Shown here one piece after another: positions 11,118 through 41,529 of a stretch of DNA of 64,000 bases. Where the stretch lies: contig DASXDT010000001.1 of NCBI GenBank assembly GCA_036490475.1, positions 124,001 through 188,000 on the forward strand, given 5' to 3'. The DNA comes from Candidatus Tumulicola sp. (GTDB lineage Bacteria; Vulcanimicrobiota; Vulcanimicrobiia; Vulcanimicrobiales; Vulcanimicrobiaceae). The notes beneath the pieces are model-generated. The model made no database searches. It was not told where the DNA came from and saw nothing but the letters and a program-made list of their open reading frames with translations. Every line of letters starts with the position of its first letter. Positions within the stretch are counted from its first letter, which is position 1. Position numbers and translations under genes: made by a program.

Positions 11118-11612
11118 GTGAGCATTGCGTTATTAATTGTGCGACTGATTGTGGGATTGGGACTCGCGGCCCACGGCAGCCAGAAGCTGTTCGGTTGGTT
11201 CGGCGGGTATGGCCTGTCGGGCACAGGTGGATTCTTCGACAAGATCGGCTTTCGGCCCGGCCGCCTCTTCGCGTTAGCAGCCGGACTGGGCGAGTTCGTC
11301 GGCGGACTGCTCACGGCGTTCGGTGTCGGTGGCGCGCTGGGCCCAGTCATCATCGTGTGCGTCATGCTGGTTGCAATCGGAGCCGTGCACCTTAGCAAGG
11401 GCTTCTTCAGCGATAAGGGCGGCTGGGAGCTGCCGGCGATGTACGCTTGCGTCGCGCTAGCGATTGCGTTCGCAGGCAACGGACGTTTTTCGGTCGACGC
11501 CGCACTTGGTCTCACATTCTTGACCGATCCGCTGCAGATTTGGATCGCGTTGGGTGCCGCACTGATAATCGCAGTGCTGAACATCTTCGCGAAGCGGACC
11601 CCGGCGACGTGA
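11118..11612 (+). CDS. DoxX-family membrane protein
   Basis: 164 residues, four membrane helices. The family opening SIALLIVRLIVGLGLAAHGSQ is followed by KLFGWFGGYGLSGTGGFF and AGLGEFVGGLLTAFG. DoxX/DoxD-type proteins are often controlled by HxlR or MarR regulators and linked to oxidative or electrophile stress. The GTG at 11118 is the only start that preserves the first helix and matches the -10 box seven bases upstream. The control partner is probably the divergent HxlR gene. Confidence 0.9.
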   Translation: MSIALLIVRLIVGLGLAAHGSQKLFGWFGGYGLSGTGGFFDKIGFRPGRLFALAAGLGEFVGGLLTAFGVGGALGPVIIVCVMLVAIGAVHLSKGFFSDKGGWELPAMYACVALAIAFAGNGRFSVDAALGLTFLTDPLQIWIALGAALIIAVLNIFAKRTPAT

Positions 11613-29163: not shown

Positions 29164-29973
29164 CTAGTGCGGGTATACGCGCGCAAAGTCTGCTTTGAAC
29201 ACGTACGTTCCCGGCACGGGCGCGCAATAGAAGCGCGCCGGCGCGTACGTGGATTGCAGTGCGGCGTCCTTCGTCACGTTTTCTTCGGCTTTCGAAGCCG
29301 TCGATGACAGCACGTACGCCTTGGCGGCACGGCCACTCGCATCGACGTACACGATGACTCGAACCGAGCCCTCGCCGCTAGCGATACCGGGACCCCTCGG
29401 AAAATCCGGCGAAACCGCCTTCTGGATCGTTGCGGCGTCGCTGAGGCTTCCACAGGTCACCGCCGGCAGCGCCTGGACGAACTTCGCAGCAAGATGCAAC
29501 GTCGCACCTGCCGGCTGCGGAGGAACTGCGGGATTCGCGGGAGTCTTGGTTTGGAACTCGCGCGGCTCGGTGGCGCAGGCTGTTTCGGCGCCGCCGTCGA
29601 GGCGGTATGAATCGACGTAGATAAACTTCGCCTCGATCGGTTTCGGGAATGTTATTTCGACCGGTGCGGTGTTCTTGATGCTTCGCGGCCCGGAAAGCGC
29701 CAACGCGGGAACATCGACTCCGTACGCGTCGGTCGCGGAGAAGACGACGAGATGCGCGCCTGCCGACGCACCGTCGGCCCGCAGATGTGCAACGAGCGTT
29801 GTCGGCGACGTGACGGCCGCTTCGACGTCTACAGAACAGAATGGATCTCGAGCGGATGGATCGGCGACCACCTCGACCGGCGGGGTCGCCTGGGCGTCAG
29901 CGACAAAACCGCTCGCGCAAAAGAAAGCGCCGGCCAGCGCCAGCGTACCAAGTTTGGTCCTCACAGCATGCAC
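29164..29973 (-). CDS. Secreted four-Cys protein with TonB-C-like end, paralogue 1
   Basis: About 269 residues from GTG 29973 (a GTG three codons later is equally possible); the signal peptide is GTLALAGAFFCASGFVADAQA. N-terminal domain: DPFCSVD, LVVFSATDAYGVDVPALAL, FIYVDSYRLDGGAETACATE. C-terminal domain: VTCGSLSDAATI, VRVIVYVDASGRAAKAYVLS, STYAPARFYCAPVPGTYVFK, which looks like a TonB C-terminal fold. Four Cys positions are shared with the genes at 29975 and 31132. The family is unknown to me. It begins 2 bp after its neighbour's stop, so the two are cotranscribed. Confidence 0.65.
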   Translation of the reverse strand: MHAVRTKLGTLALAGAFFCASGFVADAQATPPVEVVADPSARDPFCSVDVEAAVTSPTTLVAHLRADGASAGAHLVVFSATDAYGVDVPALALSGPRSIKNTAPVEITFPKPIEAKFIYVDSYRLDGGAETACATEPREFQTKTPANPAVPPQPAGATLHLAAKFVQALPAVTCGSLSDAATIQKAVSPDFPRGPGIASGEGSVRVIVYVDASGRAAKAYVLSSTASKAEENVTKDAALQSTYAPARFYCAPVPGTYVFKADFARVYPH

Positions 29974-29974
29974 G

Positions 29975-30826
29975 CTACTTGTCGAATTCAACGGTGAAAA
30001 GATATGCGGCGTTAACCGGCATGCAATGTATGAGCGCGGGCTGGTAGGTCGACCGTATCGCGGCGGCTTGGGCCTGCTCGTCGGTAACATCGATACCGCT
30101 CGATCGCGTAAGATAGGTCTTAGCAATTTGGCCGGTCGCGTCGACGTATACTGCGACGATGGCGGTTCGCATCTTATCCAGGTTCTCGATTCCATCGGGC
30201 TGTACCGCGTGCGTTACGATCGCGTCGCGATCCGGCGCGCCGCAATTCGTGACCGGAAGCTTTTCTTTGAGGGTCGCCGGAAACGTTATATAGTGATTCA
30301 ACAACGCGGGAGAGGGCCGGTTTAGGCCGACCGTCGCATAGTCGAACTGTCCAAGTTTAAAAGGTTCTATCGCGCATTGCACTTCTGGAGCGCCGTCCGC
30401 GGAATAGGATTCGATATATGCGTTTTTGACTTCCACGGCTTTGGGTAACGCGATAAGAAATTGGGACGTGCCGTTTTCACTGACAAGTTTGAACGTCATG
30501 AGCGGAAGGACGTGCACCGAAAATGCCTCGGTTGCGGTCATCAACACCAGTCGCGCCGACAGCTTCTTTCCTTGCGTGAAGAGCGTGGCCAGTAGGCGAT
30601 CGCTCGTGGCGCTCTCGGCGTTGCTCTTAACGTCCCAACCGGCCATGGAAAGCGACACACCGCAAAACGGATCGACGCCGGGCGGTGGACCATCCCCATA
30701 GTGAACGCTTTGAGCGTACGCCGGCGACGCCGCGAACGAGCTCGCGAACAGCAACGTGGCGACAACACCGATCGGGCGAATTGACTCGCAGCCGCGCCAT
30801 AGAAGCGCGCGCCACCTCTCAAACAT
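29975..30826 (-). CDS. Secreted four-Cys protein with TonB-C-like end, paralogue 2
   Basis: 283 residues. Signal peptide VVATLLFASSFAASPAYAQ. Shared blocks: VDPFCGVSLSMAGWD, LVLMTATEAFSVHVLPL, FLIALPKAVEVKNAYIESY, PEVQCAIEPF, VTNCGAPDRDAIV, AIVAVYVDATGQIAKTYL and STYQPALIHCMPVNAAYLF. The ribosome binding site GGGAGG stands before ATG 30826. Divergent from paralogue 3. The C-terminal domain repeats the strand-turn pattern of TonB C-terminal domains, which bind partner proteins; the function here is unknown. Confidence 0.7.
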   Translation of the reverse strand: MFERWRALLWRGCESIRPIGVVATLLFASSFAASPAYAQSVHYGDGPPPGVDPFCGVSLSMAGWDVKSNAESATSDRLLATLFTQGKKLSARLVLMTATEAFSVHVLPLMTFKLVSENGTSQFLIALPKAVEVKNAYIESYSADGAPEVQCAIEPFKLGQFDYATVGLNRPSPALLNHYITFPATLKEKLPVTNCGAPDRDAIVTHAVQPDGIENLDKMRTAIVAVYVDATGQIAKTYLTRSSGIDVTDEQAQAAAIRSTYQPALIHCMPVNAAYLFTVEFDK

Positions 30827-31131: not shown

Positions 31132-31935
31132 ATGCGGCGGCTTATCGCTTCCATCTGCTTCTTTTTTGCCTTATGCGCGCCGCTCTGCGCCGGCGCGCAG
31201 ACGGTGACGCCATCGCCAAGCCCTTCGCCTGACCCGCCCTATTGGGTAGATCCTTTTTGCAGCGTAGCCGCCGACTACGATTACTGGGACGTGGCGCGCA
31301 ATCGGGGCATCGACGACGGGCCAACAAGTTATCTCCTCGGAAGGCTGTATGCTCACAGTACCGGCGTTTCCGCGCACGTCATCTTGCTGTCCGACACCGA
31401 CGCGTACGAAGCGTCGATTTCGACGCAGCCGTTAAGCGGCGACGCCGACTACCTGCGCCATTCGACGCAGTTTCTGATCGCGTTACCCAATGCGATGCAA
31501 ATCCGATATGCCTATGTGGACTCATACCAGCTCGATGGCGGCACCGTCGTAAATTGCCCGACGGAAGCAAATCACTTCGAGAAGGGCATCGGTCAAAACG
31601 CCCCCGCCGACATCAAGATGACGCCGACATTTGCGGCCTCGTTTCGTCAAAAGTTGCCGACCCTGACTTGCGGCAAAGTGTACAGGGCGGCGACGGTAAT
31701 GCGCGCGGAGTCGCCACGCGGCATCCAGACGGGCAAGACGCTCCAGGTGAAGATTGCGATTTATATCAACTCGGATGGGTCGCTGGCGAAATCGTTCGTG
31801 TATAAAAAGAGCGGAGTCGACTATGCGGACGCGCTGGCACTCGATGCGGCTAATCGGTCGTCCTACATCGCGGCGCAGTTCTTATGCACGCCGATCGTGG
31901 GTGAGTACCTATTTACCGCGGACTTCGAACCGTAG
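31132..31935 (+). CDS. Secreted four-Cys protein with TonB-C-like end, paralogue 3
   Basis: 267 residues. Signal peptide IASICFFFALCAPLCAGAQ then a Thr/Pro/Ser linker. Same blocks as its two neighbours: WVDPFCSVAADYDYWDV, VILLSDTDAYEASIS, FLIALPNAMQIRYAYVDSYQ, VVNCPTEANHF, LTCGKVYRAATVM, KIAIYINSDGSLAKSFVY and SSYIAAQFLCTPIVGEYLF. It is on the opposite strand from the other two, so the cluster arose by duplication plus inversion or divergence. Function unknown. Confidence 0.7.
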   Translation: MRRLIASICFFFALCAPLCAGAQTVTPSPSPSPDPPYWVDPFCSVAADYDYWDVARNRGIDDGPTSYLLGRLYAHSTGVSAHVILLSDTDAYEASISTQPLSGDADYLRHSTQFLIALPNAMQIRYAYVDSYQLDGGTVVNCPTEANHFEKGIGQNAPADIKMTPTFAASFRQKLPTLTCGKVYRAATVMRAESPRGIQTGKTLQVKIAIYINSDGSLAKSFVYKKSGVDYADALALDAANRSSYIAAQFLCTPIVGEYLFTADFEP

Positions 31936-35855: not shown

Positions 35856-36548
35856 ATGACGATCGAATCGACTTCATCGCGGCTCGCATCCGAAGGCGTT
35901 CGGTACGCGACACAGATCGCGGGTGCCGCACGTAAACACGGGCTGAATCCGGAACTGCTCGCCGCCGTTGCGGCGCAAGAAACCGGTGGGCCCGGCAGCA
36001 ACGCCGGACGCAATATCGTCGGAGACGGCGGCCACGGCCGCGGCGTCTTTCAGATCGACGACCGCTGGCACGACTTCGCCAAAACGCCGGAAGCGATGGA
36101 TCCACAGGACAATGCCGACTATGCAGCCGGCATGATCTCCGGCTTGCTCAAGCGATACGGCGGGAACGTGCACGAAGCGCTCTCGGCGTATAACGCGGGA
36201 GATCCGGATGCGACGGGAACGCGAACACAATGGGGCGACGGCCAAAATCTCGGCTATGCCGATTCGGTGATCGAGCATTACCGACGGCTGACCGGAACGT
36301 CGGGGGCTGCGCCACCCGGAACGCCAGGCGCCGGGCCCGACGGACCGAACGATCCGTCTCCGCAATCGCCCGGAATCAACGCGTCGGGCGAACCCGCCGG
36401 ACTCGCCGAATTACTTCAGGCCCTCGAGAGCATGGCTTCGTCGGGCACGGGTTCGATGCAACCACCGACACCGCCTCAGCCGCCGCAAAGCTACCATCGC
36501 CAGATGACCGATTATAGCAGTCTGTTCGATGACGACGACAACGGCTAA
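35856..36548 (+). CDS. Lytic transglycosylase (SLT domain)
   Basis: 230 residues. The SLT fold occupies residues 8-145: AAVAAQETGGPGS with the catalytic Glu, GHGRGVFQIDDRWH, DPQDNADYAAGMISGLLKRY and HEALSAYNAGDP. The C-terminal third is a Pro/Gly/Ser linker ending in DDDDNG. No signal peptide is seen, which suggests export by a specialised route or use in a cell-envelope machine. It is 23 bp before a small helical gene with its own AAGGAG site, so the two are probably one operon. Confidence 0.85.
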   Translation: MTIESTSSRLASEGVRYATQIAGAARKHGLNPELLAAVAAQETGGPGSNAGRNIVGDGGHGRGVFQIDDRWHDFAKTPEAMDPQDNADYAAGMISGLLKRYGGNVHEALSAYNAGDPDATGTRTQWGDGQNLGYADSVIEHYRRLTGTSGAAPPGTPGAGPDGPNDPSPQSPGINASGEPAGLAELLQALESMASSGTGSMQPPTPPQPPQSYHRQMTDYSSLFDDDDNG

Positions 36549-36571
36549 CACCCGAATCAAGGAGAGACGAC

Positions 36572-36904
36572 ATGGCTTTTCTACTTCCGATCCTCGAAGG
36601 GGTCGGCTCGAGCTTGCTGGGCAACGCGATCGGCAGTGCCGTTGGTAATGGCGCATCGGGCAATCTCGAGAACAGCGCGATGAACGGGCTCAACGCGCAA
36701 GACGAGCAGTTTCAGCTCGGCATCTATGCGTCGGAAGTGCAGAACCAAGAACAGTTGCAGATGCAGAGTGAAGTGTTCGACCAGATGATGGACGAACGCA
36801 GCGAAAACATGCGCGAGATCGATACGCTTCGCAACGTCGACATGACCCAACGCAAAGCCGACGACAGCATCACCAAGAAATTCATACAAAGCATAACCGA
36901 GTAA
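36572..36904 (+). CDS. Small helical protein A (glycine-zipper N-terminus)
   Basis: 110 residues after a strong AAGGAG site. The N-terminal 30 residues form a Gly/Ala/Ser helix (VGSSLLGNAIGSAVGNGASG), which could insert in a membrane or pack as a filament. The rest is polar and helical: QDEQFQLGIYASEVQNQEQL, then DERSENMREIDTLRNVDMTQ, and the end ITKKFIQSITE. Fragments of this gene recur downstream at 37306, 37751 and 38915. Family not recognised. The lytic transglycosylase just upstream hints at an envelope-spanning or secreted role. Confidence 0.65.
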   Translation: MAFLLPILEGVGSSLLGNAIGSAVGNGASGNLENSAMNGLNAQDEQFQLGIYASEVQNQEQLQMQSEVFDQMMDERSENMREIDTLRNVDMTQRKADDSITKKFIQSITE

Positions 36905-36910
36905 CGGCGT

Positions 36911-37222
36911 TCAAAGAGGCGCACAAAATGTCGTGCTCGTGAAACTCCAGGCAAAGGTCGCCAGAATAAAGGCCCCGATGCCGATGGCCACGAGCGACAG
37001 AGTTCGCCTCTTTTCCCAAACGCTTGCTGCCACGAGTGGCGTAACAATCACATACGCAACGAGTATCTTATCTACAATCGGAACCCAATCGTAACACCGA
37101 TACGGCTCTATAGGCCATCGAGTCTGGAGAGCAAAACGAAACGCGAAACCGCCTAGTACGGATACGATCGAAACACCGAAGGCTGCGATAGCCGCAAGCG
37201 CACGAATCGTCCAACGAGCCAT
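36911..37222 (-). CDS. Small three-helix membrane protein, paralogue of the gene at 40683
   Basis: 103 residues. Helices at IRALAAIAAFGVSIVSVLGG, VDKILVAYVIVTPLVAASV and LVAIGIGAFILATFAWSF. Between helices 1 and 2 lies RWPIEPYRCYDWVPIV, and the protein ends FCAPL. The gene at 40683 shows the same plan: YHCYVW, a middle LAAPLA helix, VLATFVMSYTRVLPCSPL. Two Cys at the same places may form a disulfide outside the membrane. Function unknown. It is inserted, opposite in strand, between protein A and the B-type genes. Confidence 0.55.
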   Translation of the reverse strand: MARWTIRALAAIAAFGVSIVSVLGGFAFRFALQTRWPIEPYRCYDWVPIVDKILVAYVIVTPLVAASVWEKRRTLSLVAIGIGAFILATFAWSFTSTTFCAPL

Positions 37223-37305
37223 TCTAAATAATCCACTTAAGGAGAAGAATCTTGAGCTCCTATGTATCTTCGGAATGGAAAACGATTTTCTTGAGAGTGG
37301 TCCGT

Positions 37306-37581
37306 ATCACCAAGAAATTTCATTCAGTCGATCACTGAATGAACGGACCAATTCTGCCGGTTCGCGCGGTCTCAACCGCCGCGCGGCCGGCGACGAAATC
37401 TCCCGACGACGACCTCACGCCAGACCAACAAGCGCAGGTTGCCGCCCAACATGCCGCTTTCGATTTCGACGCCGCCGAGAATGCCGAGCTGCAGCGCGAG
37501 CACGATGTGCTTCAAGCGTTGCTGATGGAAGAGCTCAAGAACGAGGACGAGATCGTTAAGAAATGGATCGCGTTGATCTGA
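37306..37581 (+). repeat. Direct repeat, copy 1 (gene A tail plus gene B)
   Basis: About 275 bp nearly identical to 38947-39220; by eye about a dozen base differences and two one-base indels. It holds the last codons of a gene-A copy (ITKKFIQSI-type tail, broken here by one extra T) followed by the whole of gene B. In both copies the gene-A stop and gene-B start share ATGA, the likely ancestral arrangement. Confidence 0.8.
37339..37581 (+). CDS. Small helical protein B
   Basis: 80 residues. A flexible start (LPVRAVSTAARPATKSPDDD) leads to a long amphipathic region: LTPDQQAQVAAQHAAFDFDA, then ENAELQREHDVLQALLMEEL and the end NEDEIVKKWIALI. That end resembles the tail of protein A (ITKKFIQSI). 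The ATG overlaps the stop of a truncated gene-A copy. No family recognised. The size and all-helical nature would suit a secreted filament or export-machine subunit, but this is a guess. Confidence 0.5.
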   Translation: MNGPILPVRAVSTAARPATKSPDDDLTPDQQAQVAAQHAAFDFDAAENAELQREHDVLQALLMEELKNEDEIVKKWIALI

Positions 37582-38030
37582 GGCTTGCAGCGAGCTTGCT
37601 CCGCCACAAAGCCCAATCTTCTCGCTGACTAGTTGACGATACATTTCCACGGCAAATCACAGAGCGCGATGAAGGTGAAGTACATACTAGGCACATCCGG
37701 CCCTCCATTTGGTCCCAGGCAGCGACCGGATGCGCACTAGTGGTGAGTCCGCAAACGTCGACCGTGACGCAACGCAAGGCCGACGACCCGCGAAGCTTCG
37801 TGGCACACGACGAAGCCGCACGGTTGATTGAAGACGATCTCGCGGATGCCCGCAGAATGATAGCGGACTGCACTCTAACTGATGTTCAGGATAAGCGCGA
37901 GTCCCGAAGAAAGCGCTGCGGTTCGTTAGGGAGCGGAAAGCCGCGTAAAAGGCGCTAGCTGAGTTAAAGATCGGCAAACCCTCGGGGTCCCAAGCTTTAA
38001 CTCAGCGTTTTGAAAAAGGGATTGCCCGGT
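37582..38030. other. Gene-poor stretch with a gene-A remnant
   Basis: 449 bp without an intact gene. At 37751-37790 the sequence reads VDxVTQRKADDP, matching NVDMTQRKADDS of protein A at 36572, so it is a third fragment of that gene. The continuation (LIEDDLADARRMIADC) is open but not recognisable. The right end holds a 12-bp inverted repeat (37958-38006). Confidence 0.5.
37958..38006 (-). terminator. Inverted repeat, probable terminator of the gene at 38031
   Basis: GCTGAGTTAAAG (37958-37969) and CTTTAACTCAGC (37995-38006) form a perfect 12-bp stem with a 25-base loop that contains further GC-rich pairing. It lies 25 bp downstream of the stop of the secreted-protein gene on the minus strand. 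There is no T run on that strand, so a terminator role is likely but not certain. Confidence 0.5.
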
Positions 38031-38441
38031 TTATTGAGAGGCGTTGTCGAGTTGCGTAAACACTCCGAGGCATCCCCAACCTAAGCACCAATGTCCATCT
38101 ATGTAGTACCAAACCTGCGCCCACTGACTACAAGTGTAATTGGGAATAACGTCAGACGACGGGCCACCAGATGACCAGGCAAACTTTGGTCTTTGAATTC
38201 CGACTATGAGGTTTGGGGATGCGCCGTTCGCTACGAGCATCTTCTTGGCTGCATCGGCGTGCCCGCTGTTCAGAAGAGCCGTAAATCGCGGGTCTTTAGC
38301 TAGTTTGTTGGCAGCAGCGGTATCCCGCGCCCGCTGGGGCGAATTGACGTTAGACCCAGCGGTCTTCTGCGCGAGTGCCGATGGAGTGTTTCCTGCGAGT
38401 ATTAGAAACGCCGCGATCGTAGCGACAATGCGAAAATTCAT
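38031..38441 (-). CDS. Small secreted Cys/Trp-rich-ended protein
   Basis: 136 residues from ATG 38441, preceded by GGGAG and followed by a signal peptide (RIVATIAAFLILAGNTPSALAQ). The middle is helical and charged (RARDTAAANKLAKDPRFTALL, then HADAAKKMLVANGAS). The C-terminus is Trp/Cys-rich: YTCSQWAQVWYYIDGHWCLG and WGCLGVF. That end could form disulfides and a small beta hairpin. An upstream in-frame ATG at 38501 adds 20 residues before the signal peptide and is less likely. Family unknown; a secreted effector or bacteriocin-like peptide is conceivable. Confidence 0.6.
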   Translation of the reverse strand: MNFRIVATIAAFLILAGNTPSALAQKTAGSNVNSPQRARDTAAANKLAKDPRFTALLNSGHADAAKKMLVANGASPNLIVGIQRPKFAWSSGGPSSDVIPNYTCSQWAQVWYYIDGHWCLGWGCLGVFTQLDNASQ

Positions 38442-38946
38442 AGATCTTATTCTCCCTTTACTCCGAGTGGAGGCCTGGAGCTGAATCGGTCCTTGGGGCA
38501 ACCCAGGCCTTCCTAGCCTTAGCAGTATACAAGCATGCGCTTCTTGAGGTCAATGAAGAGATCCAGTTTCGGTGCTGCACTTTTGGAGCGGCTTGGATTT
38601 TGTTGAAACTCAATCGATGCGTAGCTCTCAGGCGTGCTCCTAGAACGAAGCTGGGAAGCGACAGGTGGCGCGATCGACTCGGACGATTCACTATCGCCTC
38701 GTCCTTGCTAATATAACCGCGTCTACCAGCGGCGTAGCCATTCCTTACGGGCGCGGAACTCCGCGTGCTAGCCGATTTTTGGCGGGCGTCGAGCGTCGAT
38801 TTACCAGCCTCGCATCTCCAAGGCCATTGCGGCGCTCCCGGAGTCGCCGGCTTCTATGCCGTCCCGTCGCGGCAGAACGAACTTTTGACCTGTGCGAAGC
38901 TCCCTAACAAACTTATGTCGCCAAGAAGAGGAAGACCGAGGACAGC
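38442..38946. other. Gene-poor stretch upstream of the second direct repeat
   Basis: 505 bp with no supported gene. Just before 38947 (from about 38915) the sequence reads VAKKRKTEDSITKK in the gene-A frame, another 3' fragment of gene A that continues into the direct repeat. The promoter of the 38441 gene should lie at the left end, but no clear boxes were found. Confidence 0.4.
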
Positions 38947-39220
38947 ATCACCAAGAAATTCATTCAGTCGATCGCCGAATGAACGGACCAATCTGCCGGT
39001 TCGCGCGGTCTCGACCGCCGCGCGGCCGGCGACGAAATCTCCCGACGACGACCTCACGCCAGACCAACAAGCGCCGGTTGCAGCGCAACATGCCGCTTTC
39101 GATTTCGACGCCGCCGAGAATGCCGAGCTGCAGCGCGAGCACGATTTGCTTCAAGCGTTGCTGATGGAAGAGCTCAAGAACGAGGGCGAGATCGTTAAGA
39201 AATGGATCGCGTTGATTTGA
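38947..39220 (+). repeat. Direct repeat, copy 2
   Basis: Matches 37306-37581 almost base for base. The gene-A tail is intact here (ITKKFIQSIAE, stop TGA shared with the next ATG), while gene B has lost one T in its fifth codon. Each copy therefore carries a different one-base lesion. Confidence 0.8.
38979..39220 (+). pseudogene. Protein B, second copy, frameshifted
   Basis: ATG 38979 opens MNGPI as in copy 1, but ATTCTG of copy 1 is ATCTG here. The missing T shifts the frame after four codons, so the start no longer reaches the body. The body (AVSTAARPATKSPDDDLTPD, then ELQREHDLLQALLMEELKNE, GEIVKKWIALI) stays open to 39220 and is readable only from an upstream frame. Differences from copy 1 in the body are few, so the duplication is recent or maintained by conversion. 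Confidence 0.65.
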
Positions 39221-40682: not shown

Positions 40683-41057
40683 TCACAGTGGAGAGCACGG
40701 AAGCACTCTCGTGTAACTCATTACGAACGTCGCCAAAACGAGTGCAAGGAGTCCGACGACGACGATCGTCGCGCCGCGCGCTCTTCCTTGAATAAAGGCT
40801 ACCGCTAAGGGCGCGGCCAGCAAATACACGACTAGAGCCGTCGCAACGCGTGACTCCCAAACGTAACAATGATACACCGGCGGCGGGCGCTGTGTGTTAA
40901 AAGCCATTCGTCCTGCGAGGCCGACGATCGCGCCGAACGCCGCTACGACATATCCCATCAGAGCGCCGAGGAGCGCACTCTTCAACGAATTCGCGGTCAC
41001 AAGAATGACGTTGGGAGAAAGACGTTTTAGTACCTTGTACCGCTTCGTTTTGCGCAA
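40683..41057 (-). CDS. Small three-helix membrane protein, paralogue of the gene at 36911
   Basis: 124 residues. Helices at SALLGALMGYVVAAFGAIVG, ATALVVYLLAAPLAVAFI and ATIVVVGLLALVLATFVMSY. The loop QRPPPVYHCYVWESRV and the end LPCSPL correspond to RWPIEPYRCYDWVPIV and FCAPL of the paralogue. The first 20 residues (RKTKRYKVLKRLSPN) are basic and may be an overextension; a GTG at the VTANSLKS position is an alternative start. Function unknown. Confidence 0.5.
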   Translation of the reverse strand: MRKTKRYKVLKRLSPNVILVTANSLKSALLGALMGYVVAAFGAIVGLAGRMAFNTQRPPPVYHCYVWESRVATALVVYLLAAPLAVAFIQGRARGATIVVVGLLALVLATFVMSYTRVLPCSPL

Positions 41058-41160: not shown

Positions 41161-41529
41161 TTGACAACTACTCCTCCCGAGCACGGCAAGGACGCATCGA
41201 TTACCGAGCAGGCGGTTATCGGGGTTATCAAAATGAAGACTTCGGCTACCGAAGTACCCGCTCTGCTAGAAGAAATCAACGCTATCTTTGTCGTCGAGCG
41301 AGTTAGCTTGGACGGATTTCTAGCCGCTCAGGTGCTGCTTAGCGTCGACGGAAAGACGATCGCGATCATGACCGAATGGAAGGATCGCCATGCGTGGGCA
41401 CGATCCCGCTACGACATGCGCATCGGCAGGCTTATCGAGCATTGCCTTCTGAAATCGGCAACGATCGAGTTCGAACTCTACACGCGACGCGGAGAAGTTC
41501 CCCGCCAATCATCGAGCAAAGCGAGCTAG
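41161..41529 (+). CDS. Small ABM-like (antibiotic-biosynthesis-monooxygenase fold) protein
   Basis: 122 residues from TTG 41161, chosen because AAAGGAG lies about eight bases upstream; the ATG four bases before is followed at once by TGA in its frame. Pattern: AVIGVIKMKTSATEVPALLEEINA, VERVSLDGFLAAQVLLSVDGKTIAIMTEW, RHAWARSRYDMRIG. This strand-helix order with a WKDRHAW motif fits dimeric ABM-fold proteins. Activity unknown. The 3' end overlaps the convergent antiporter gene by 21 bp. Confidence 0.6.
   Translation: MTTTPPEHGKDASITEQAVIGVIKMKTSATEVPALLEEINAIFVVERVSLDGFLAAQVLLSVDGKTIAIMTEWKDRHAWARSRYDMRIGRLIEHCLLKSATIEFELYTRRGEVPRQSSSKAS

Follow-up and report, generated by a model that had tools for sequence, protein, structure and literature searches.

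The transglycosylase operon and its products

The window, a stretch of 64,000 nucleotides from Candidatus Tumulicola sp., carries on its forward strand a lytic transglycosylase gene (SLT, positions 35856 to 36548, 230 amino acids), gene A (36572 to 36904, 110 amino acids) and gene B (37339 to 37581, 80 amino acids). All three are open frames, in agreement with the sequence-only reading, which had called A and B intact. SLT is the first gene of the operon and is kept 5' of A-B, and the orthologues of B in relatives lie directly 3' of A, the stop of A usually overlapping the start of B. In the window a small membrane protein gene lies between A and B on the reverse strand (36911 to 37222), with a paralogue at 40683 to 41057 (37% identity over 92 amino acids).

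In Candidatus Eremiobacterota, SLT-A-B forms a conserved operon. Of 149 genomes examined from the phylum, 98 carry A, and all but one of these belong to a single class (97 of 117 class genomes); no convincing occurrence outside that class was found among the 149. The operon is chromosomal throughout the class and sits in conserved neighbourhoods. The three genes occurred together in nearly all loci sampled from the window's own family, and A stands alone in family f3; homologues are thus not found only as solitary genes, the pattern that had been named as speaking against a link to transglycosylases or export.

The SLT protein (P0003) matched PF01464 over residues 22 to 116 (E 8e-10; 38.7 bits against a gathering score of 21.3). 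The catalytic motif of the family, ES/T - G..FQ/MQ - AYNAG (PMC8517470), is represented by the residues AQET-GVFQ-AYNAG (AAQET...GVFQ...AYNAG in P0003). Against NCBIfam, a weak match to IagB fell below the cut-off. SLT and SLT_3 were the only domains found in P0003, and no rod-binding (rod-cap) domain of the FlgJ type was detected. The transglycosylase had been described as signal-less, and indeed its N-terminus shows no hydrophobic signal sequence.

The Gly/Ala-rich N-terminus of A is near membrane-helix hydrophobicity (19-residue Kyte-Doolittle mean of about 1.4 to 1.8 in many homologues) and is followed by a single long helix at residues 29 to 109 in an AF2 single-sequence model, with pLDDT above 90 at about residues 70 to 109. 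AF2 with a 45-row alignment again returned a single helix, with low confidence. B is predicted to be helical as well. The earlier description of both proteins as small, helical and without a signal needs amending for the hydrophobic start of A. Their similar endings, which had also been noticed, reflect homology, as A and B are paralogous over the C-terminal 52 residues (hhalign, profile-profile: probability 98.7%, E 2e-16, 52 columns). Profile searches, proposed earlier as a check, gave no convincing match of A or B to any named family, and sequence searches of the PDB with both gave no match. A needle/inner-rod (SctF/SctI) profile was absent among the listed Pfam and NCBIfam matches of A homologues and the listed Pfam matches of B homologues. 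Omega for A was 0.02 to 0.08, which indicates strong constraint.

Phage-derived genes had been suggested as one option. On a reading of this kind, SLT and A-B would be host-domesticated DNA-ejection proteins, similar to T7 gp16 and gp14, that form a trans-envelope channel. A signal-less SLT beside Gly/Ala-rich helical partners would suit such a role, and some A homologues weakly match T7_gp14 (best E 0.007, 26 members), ejection 'pilot' proteins and phrog_7546 (best E 4e-5). These matches are, however, short and of a kind typical of coiled coils. Furthermore, tblastn and pattern searches with A found no relative in phage and viral contigs, and the class-wide chromosomal spread in conserved neighbourhoods is at odds with this origin. 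We consider it very unlikely and reject it on these grounds.

Probable insertion and duplication at the 3' end of gene A

Downstream of A, the frameshifted B copy, the near-identical direct repeats of about 275 bp and the three A fragments listed by the sequence-only reading were all recovered, the fragments being real but short. The first repeat copy (37306 to 37581, forward strand, as are all repeats and fragments) comprises an A tail and B, and the second (38947 to 39220) an A tail and the second B. Identity between the region of the second B (38979 to 39220) and the first copy is 96.0% over 276 nt, with a gap-free 229 nt at 97%. The second B is frameshifted by a 1-nt deletion (one T) at codon 5 and beyond this differs from gene B at 7 codons, 3 of them residue-changing.

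The first A fragment (37306 to 37342) is the remnant of the original 3' end of A; it has one extra T and is joined to B through the ancestral ATGA overlap. An upstream-side fragment (37754 to 37787; 34 nt, 88%, E 9e-4) ends where A is interrupted in relatives, and a downstream-side fragment (DSITKKFIQSIAE, 38936 to 38982; 31 nt at 94%, then tail) is joined to the second B. Between these two half-sites lies a reverse-strand gene (38031 to 38501) without a family, whose product is apparently secreted and which is a probable passenger.

Unrelated DNA interrupts A at codon ~97 in three relatives (G001, G070 and G086). In G001, which belongs to the same genus as the window genome, a frame with Resolvase and Recombinase (serine recombinase) domains runs into the tail of A. 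A recombinase gene is thus located at the junction inside the interrupted A, as in a serine-integrase element that targets the 3' end of a gene. The window contains an ABM-like small gene (41161 to 41529, forward strand) with a homologue within the A-interrupting element of G001 (53% identity over 107 amino acids, weak PF03992 in both), which suggests that related mobile DNA is present here as well. Judged from the short half-sites, the A fragments of the window would fit the same kind of insertion event as in the three relatives. The final six sense codons of A (IQSITE; 36884 to 36904 with the stop) all differ synonymously from the B-attached tail, and the stop is TAA, not the overlapping TGA; these codons and the stop were probably supplied by an inserted element.

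For the fragments, an alternative without mobile elements is that A-B was simply duplicated in tandem and then eroded by deletions and point mutations. The 96% identity of the two A-tail/B direct repeats is consistent with this, as is the interval itself, where no integrase was recognised among the ORFs of 35.4 to 41.5 kb. Nevertheless, we think plain duplication unlikely, since it does not account for half-sites that coincide with the breakpoint of G001, G070 and G086, for the complete synonymous recoding of the last six sense codons of A with its altered stop, or for a neighbouring gene with a homologue in the G001 element. We therefore favour a scenario in which mobile-element events, together with duplication of the A-tail/B segment, would have separated A from B and left behind the half-sites and the broken second B, the C-terminus of A presumably being restored by a synonymous copy. 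Mobile elements have inserted repeatedly at the 3' end of A, and the locus provides an instance of the 3' end of a protein gene as a recurrent integration site.

A type III secretion system on another contig and its joint decay with SLT-A-B

In the same genome SLT-A-B is located on contig C1, and a second contig (C6) carries a flagellar-type type III secretion system (T3SS) operon encoding FlgC, FliF, FliH, FliI, an FlgF/G-like protein, FliM/N, FliPQR, FlhB and FlhA, with FliQ and FliR assigned from gene position and between-genome homology. The operon has the export gate FliPQR-FlhB-FlhA, ATPase and MS ring by which a flagellar-type T3SS is recognised, and small genes near the FlgC and FlgF/G-like genes resemble FlgB and FliE by eye. 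Flagellin (PF00669) is absent from the genome, and neither of its two secretins is near the T3SS operon. Flagellar-type T3SSs with no recognisable motor or filament occur throughout this class of abundant soil bacteria; a literature search returned no reported function for them. The earlier remark that no other machine part is visible is accurate for the surroundings of SLT-A-B, where none adjoins, but not for the genome. The suggested search for A-B pairs beside secretion genes in relatives was negative, as T3SS genes never adjoin SLT-A-B in the loci examined.

Among approximately six lineages with a lost or broken T3SS, SLT-A-B was damaged too in five. In high-quality genomes, SLT-A-B damage was seen in 5/6 T3SS-deficient versus 5/62 T3SS-positive genomes (Fisher p 1.4e-4, genomes counted as independent), where T3SS status in most genomes means two markers, FHIPEP and FliP, and stops in SLT and B were checked in part of the T3SS-positive genomes. 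FliP and FHIPEP are absent from G001 and G086, whose A is cut at codon ~97. G070 shares this cut, and its T3SS operon has undergone a large deletion, with FlhB split and FlhA interrupted by a stop. In G005, FliP has decayed and SLT and A are both missing; G108 lacks both the T3SS and A, and G107 lacks the T3SS and has a stop in SLT. In G114 the T3SS has collapsed through deletions and the start of A is changed from ATG to ATA. The syntenic site confirms deletion of T3SS genes.

Counter-cases were also identified. G084 combines an apparently complete T3SS with a truncated SLT and lacks both A and B. G025 (genus g25) has lost the T3SS, yet its SLT-A-B frames are open, with one L-to-P change in A, and in T3SS-less G111 SLT-A-B is intact or nearly intact. 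Omega was not raised in T3SS-less members of g25, and selection on A-B shows no visible relaxation in two T3SS-negative genomes. Five T3SS-positive high-quality genomes have no A, and by plain presence or absence in high-quality genomes the association of A with the T3SS is weak, becoming informative only once broken copies are counted; presence alone says little because both traits are so common among all genomes. Gaps in metagenome-assembled genomes add noise to presence/absence data.

These counter-cases, together with the lack of adjacency to T3SS genes, could also be explained if SLT-A-B were a stand-alone module of the cell envelope, with a wall-remodelling function and two helical scaffold proteins. 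It would then occupy the same lifestyle niche as the T3SS without working with it, and both would be lost in the same ecological shifts. We regard this as a real possibility, although the less probable one. It does not readily explain why lesions are concentrated in T3SS-deficient genomes over several separate losses, nor how an SLT without a visible Sec signal reaches a periplasmic substrate, a combination that calls for a special exporter. Since SLT-A-B tends to decay where the exporter is lost, it probably serves the exporter; the T3SS-positive genome without A-B and the unrelaxed selection in two T3SS-negative genomes indicate that the dependence, while likely, is not strict. Thus the needle-type export machine proposed by the sequence-only reading gains support from the T3SS and its co-decay with SLT-A-B. 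No part of a contractile system turned up within the locus or next to it.

Proposed role and relation to known systems

We propose that SLT-A-B serves as an accessory operon to the flagellum-derived T3SS of contig C6, and judge this to have an even chance of being correct. It would represent a new accessory module, with a putative mechanism, for a known kind of machine. This T3SS has kept its export gate and ATPase together with a membrane ring and proximal-rod-like proteins, while no flagellin was detected in this genome. The signal-less SLT would be exported through it and, as expected from its family, would cut a hole in the peptidoglycan for the rod. A and B would likewise be exported and would then polymerise or insert as an outer part, which may be a short rod or needle extension, or an outer-membrane channel formed via the Gly-rich hydrophobic start of A. 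More speculatively, Eremiobacteria may possess a third type of T3SS appendage, distinct from both flagellum and injectisome. It would be a basal body that lacks motor and flagellin and has an outer part of A and B, the wall being opened by a co-encoded, T3SS-exported transglycosylase and the hydrophobic Gly-rich end of A replacing the missing outer-membrane ring. We consider this extended version quite unlikely.

Export by the T3SS would also be required if A and B were secreted effectors or toxins and SLT a delivered wall-degrading toxin. SLT domains are known in antibacterial effectors, and the Gly-rich hydrophobic N-terminus would suit a pore-former. However, no immunity gene was recognised, A is near-universal in the class, and its low omega is too conserved for an arms race. 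This reading is highly improbable, and the missing immunity gene and high constraint led us to reject it.

As an accessory operon, SLT-A-B offers the class's T3SS candidate substrates and a wall-opening enzyme. Vulcanimicrobium alpinus, likely a cultured member of the class, reportedly has neither flagellin nor flagella (PMC9758169). It appears to possess both the T3SS and SLT-A-B. The role of flagellum-derived exporters between flagellum and injectisome thus becomes testable.

Several known systems resemble parts of this arrangement. The needle and inner-rod proteins of T3SSs, SctF and SctI, are a pair of small helical paralogues. A-B would share this trait, given the predicted helix of B, but unlike SctF/SctI the pair lies outside the T3SS operon and has no needle or inner-rod profile among its listed matches. 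The 'Myxo' non-flagellar T3SS of Myxococcales (Abby and Rocha 2012, PMC3459982), in the portion of that paper on which we draw, is flagellum-derived and without motility genes, needle SctF or secretin. The C6 system shares its flagellar descent and the lack of motility genes and SctF, and may share the lack of a secretin. According to the same portion it is without FlgB/FlgC and FliE, whereas the C6 operon keeps FlgC- and FlgF/G-like proteins together with the FlgB/FliE look-alikes, and no SLT-A-B satellite is described there. Similarly, the filament-less flagellar basal bodies of Buchnera, in the sections of PMC8109811 considered here, keep the export gate, FliE/FliF and rod genes and have lost flagellin and motor. 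Unlike the C6 system they keep partial hook genes, and those sections mention no equivalent of SLT-A-B. For the enzyme itself, the closest parallels are FlgJ and the spirochaete SLT BB0259 (PMC8517470). FlgJ differs from the window SLT in having a rod-cap domain, and BB0259 in having a lipoprotein signal and a further large domain; in both, as proposed here, an SLT-family enzyme is dedicated to the passage of a flagellar rod through the peptidoglycan.

Genes, repeats and probable insertion traces at the locus

In this 3.3-Mb, seven-contig genome, the lytic transglycosylase gene (SLT, 35856-36548) and two small helical genes, A (36572-36904) and B (37339-37581), are all open frames. The segment holding the A tail and B (37306-37581) has a second copy at 38947-39220, 96.0% identical to it over 276 nt; a single T missing at codon 5 of the second B puts that copy out of frame, and sequence comparison places short A pieces starting at 37306, 37754 and 38936. 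The sequence-only reading, which had claimed intact A and B genes after a transglycosylase, near-identical direct repeats of about 275 bp, a frameshifted B and several A fragments, is upheld on each of these points. Two paralogous small membrane proteins (36911-37222 and 40683-41057, both minus strand, 37% identity) are also encoded here, one of them between A and B. Three related, apparently secreted proteins (29164-30195 and 29975-30826, minus strand; 31132-31935, plus strand; 33-35% identity) cluster between the fab/yceD block and SLT.

A stretch of foreign DNA about 6.8 kb long lies within A in the related genome G001, and this element's serine recombinase frame (PF00239, PF07508; L039:14908-16383) continues straight into the last 14 codons of A, overlapping the B start. 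Judged from this arrangement, recombinase and B could be co-translated. G070 and G086 have in common an insertion that interrupts A at the same codon as in G001, and the two half-sites in the window, upstream at 37754-37787 and downstream from 38936 on, both fall at this interruption position. In the intact window A, each of the six last sense codons is a synonym of its counterpart in the B-linked tail, and the stop is TAA, not the overlapping TGA; a new 3' end brought in by an inserted element would give this pattern. The G001 element contains a homologue, at 53% identity, of the gene at 41161-41529. Elsewhere, in G010, an inverted A fragment (L027:10466-10568, 80% identity) lies within an island that starts after tRNA-Ile; beyond the island, at about 11377-11420, part of the 3' end of this tRNA is repeated.

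Distribution and constraint of the A-B family

Gene A occurs in 98 of 149 genomes of the phylum and in 97 of the 117 belonging to one class, the only match beyond that class being marginal (E 7e-4). Named relatives carrying it are nearly all Candidatus Eremiobacterota MAGs; three labelled Rhodospirillales or Proteobacteria (L089, L093 and L094) have typical A genes, with SLT-A-B in the first two, and are probably mislabelled Eremiobacterota. The gene order SLT-A-B hardly varies within the window's family, where the A stop and B start overlap as ATGA and the unit adjoins a cluster of housekeeping genes (fab, acpP, yceD). In family f3, A is solitary and adjoins rpmE/prfA.

B is a paralogue of the C-terminal half of A (hhalign probability 98.7%, E 2e-16), with homology spanning the motif F-D...E...RE...L...K.DD.I.KK.I..I, which explains the like endings that had been noticed. 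Profile comparison related A and B to each other, and searches of Pfam, NCBIfam, PHROGs and PDB gave no convincing match for them. Omega within one genus is 0.02-0.08 for A, about 0.1 for SLT and about 0.15 for B, and these low values indicate strongly constrained proteins. A single-sequence model predicts a Gly-rich hydrophobic start followed by one long helix for A; a model from a 45-row alignment had low confidence.

A flagellar-type secretion operon and its co-decay with SLT-A-B

The sequence-only reading likened the locus to a needle-type export machine with no other part visible; a candidate machine is encoded in this genome, outside the window. Its one FHIPEP protein (FlhA-type export gate) lies within a type III secretion (T3SS) operon at C6:319.9-336.1 kb. 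Pfam matches back the assignment of FlgC-like, FliF (plus part of FliG_M), FliH, FlgF/G D1, two FliM/N-type proteins, FlhB and the FliI ATPase; FliP was identified by family search, and FliQ and FliR were assigned by position and cross-genome homology. Two small genes appear FlgB- and FliE-like when read by eye. No hook, filament or outer rings are recognisable in the operon, flagellin is absent from the genome, and two secretins are encoded elsewhere in it. Both flagella and a flagellin gene were reported absent from Vulcanimicrobium alpinus (PMC9758169). Class-wide, the T3SS-type FHIPEP is distinct from true FlhA, which about half of the relatives also have. Genomes from other families of this phylum (G057 and G134-G139 among them) each show many additional FHIPEP matches, which in G057 mostly cover just the C-terminal half (about positions 300-656). 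MTHFR-like and retropepsin-like aspartyl protease genes sit inside the operon (C6, about 324.0-324.9 and 330.5-332.1 kb; L023, L024) and keep their order where T3SS genes are deleted (G001, G025, G107).

Among high-quality genomes, 5 of 6 T3SS-deficient ones have SLT-A-B damaged or missing, against 5 of 62 T3SS-positive ones (Fisher p 1.4e-4; 2e-3 when A alone is counted). This test treats genomes as independent though they are not so, leaves out two T3SS-positive genomes in which the contig ends within SLT, and relies on stop screens of SLT and B in part of the T3SS-positive genomes. G001 lacks the T3SS, with the flanks SecF-SecD-MTHFR-protease-TruA still in order, and its A is cut near codon 97. 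A is cut at the same place in G070, where a large deletion runs from FlgC into FliP, FlhB is in two frames and FlhA has a stop, and in G086, where FliP and FHIPEP are absent from a genome only 68% complete. G005 has a FliP with three stops, FlhA as fragments, and neither SLT nor A. In G114, FlgC, FliE, FliP and FlhA remnants lie within about 2 kb and the A start is changed from ATG to ATA, which could be an error in this low-coverage MAG. Neither G107 nor G108 has a T3SS; SLT has a stop in the former, and the latter has no A or SLT orthologue. SLT-A-B is intact in T3SS-less G111 (56% complete). In a SecDF tree, where some supports are only 65-67, the losses in G025 and in the G107/G108/G111 group come out as distinct events.

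A clear exception is G084, which combines an apparently complete T3SS operon with damaged SLT-A-B; its SLT (L116, C26:7383-7817) breaks off after residue 128 and bears a Gly-Asp-Lys repeat and a B-like tail in inverted orientation. The strongest counter-evidence to a T3SS role is that the SLT-A-B frames are open in T3SS-less G025, where A is intact save one L-to-P change unique among aligned homologues, and that omega is not raised in its genus.

Proposed role and known systems

SLT has no visible Sec signal and may reach the periplasm through the T3SS, as FlgJ does. Enzymes of the SLT family cut peptidoglycan, in some cases in the service of a flagellar rod (PMC8517470). A and B would be exported next and form a part beyond the rod, a placement we suggest because the operon lacks a recognisable hook, filament and outer rings.

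Neither the A-B family nor its link to such a machine was found in the open-access literature searched. The export machine itself is of a known kind, with precedents in the Buchnera basal bodies without flagellin (PMC8109811) and in the secretin-less Myxo T3SS (PMC3459982).
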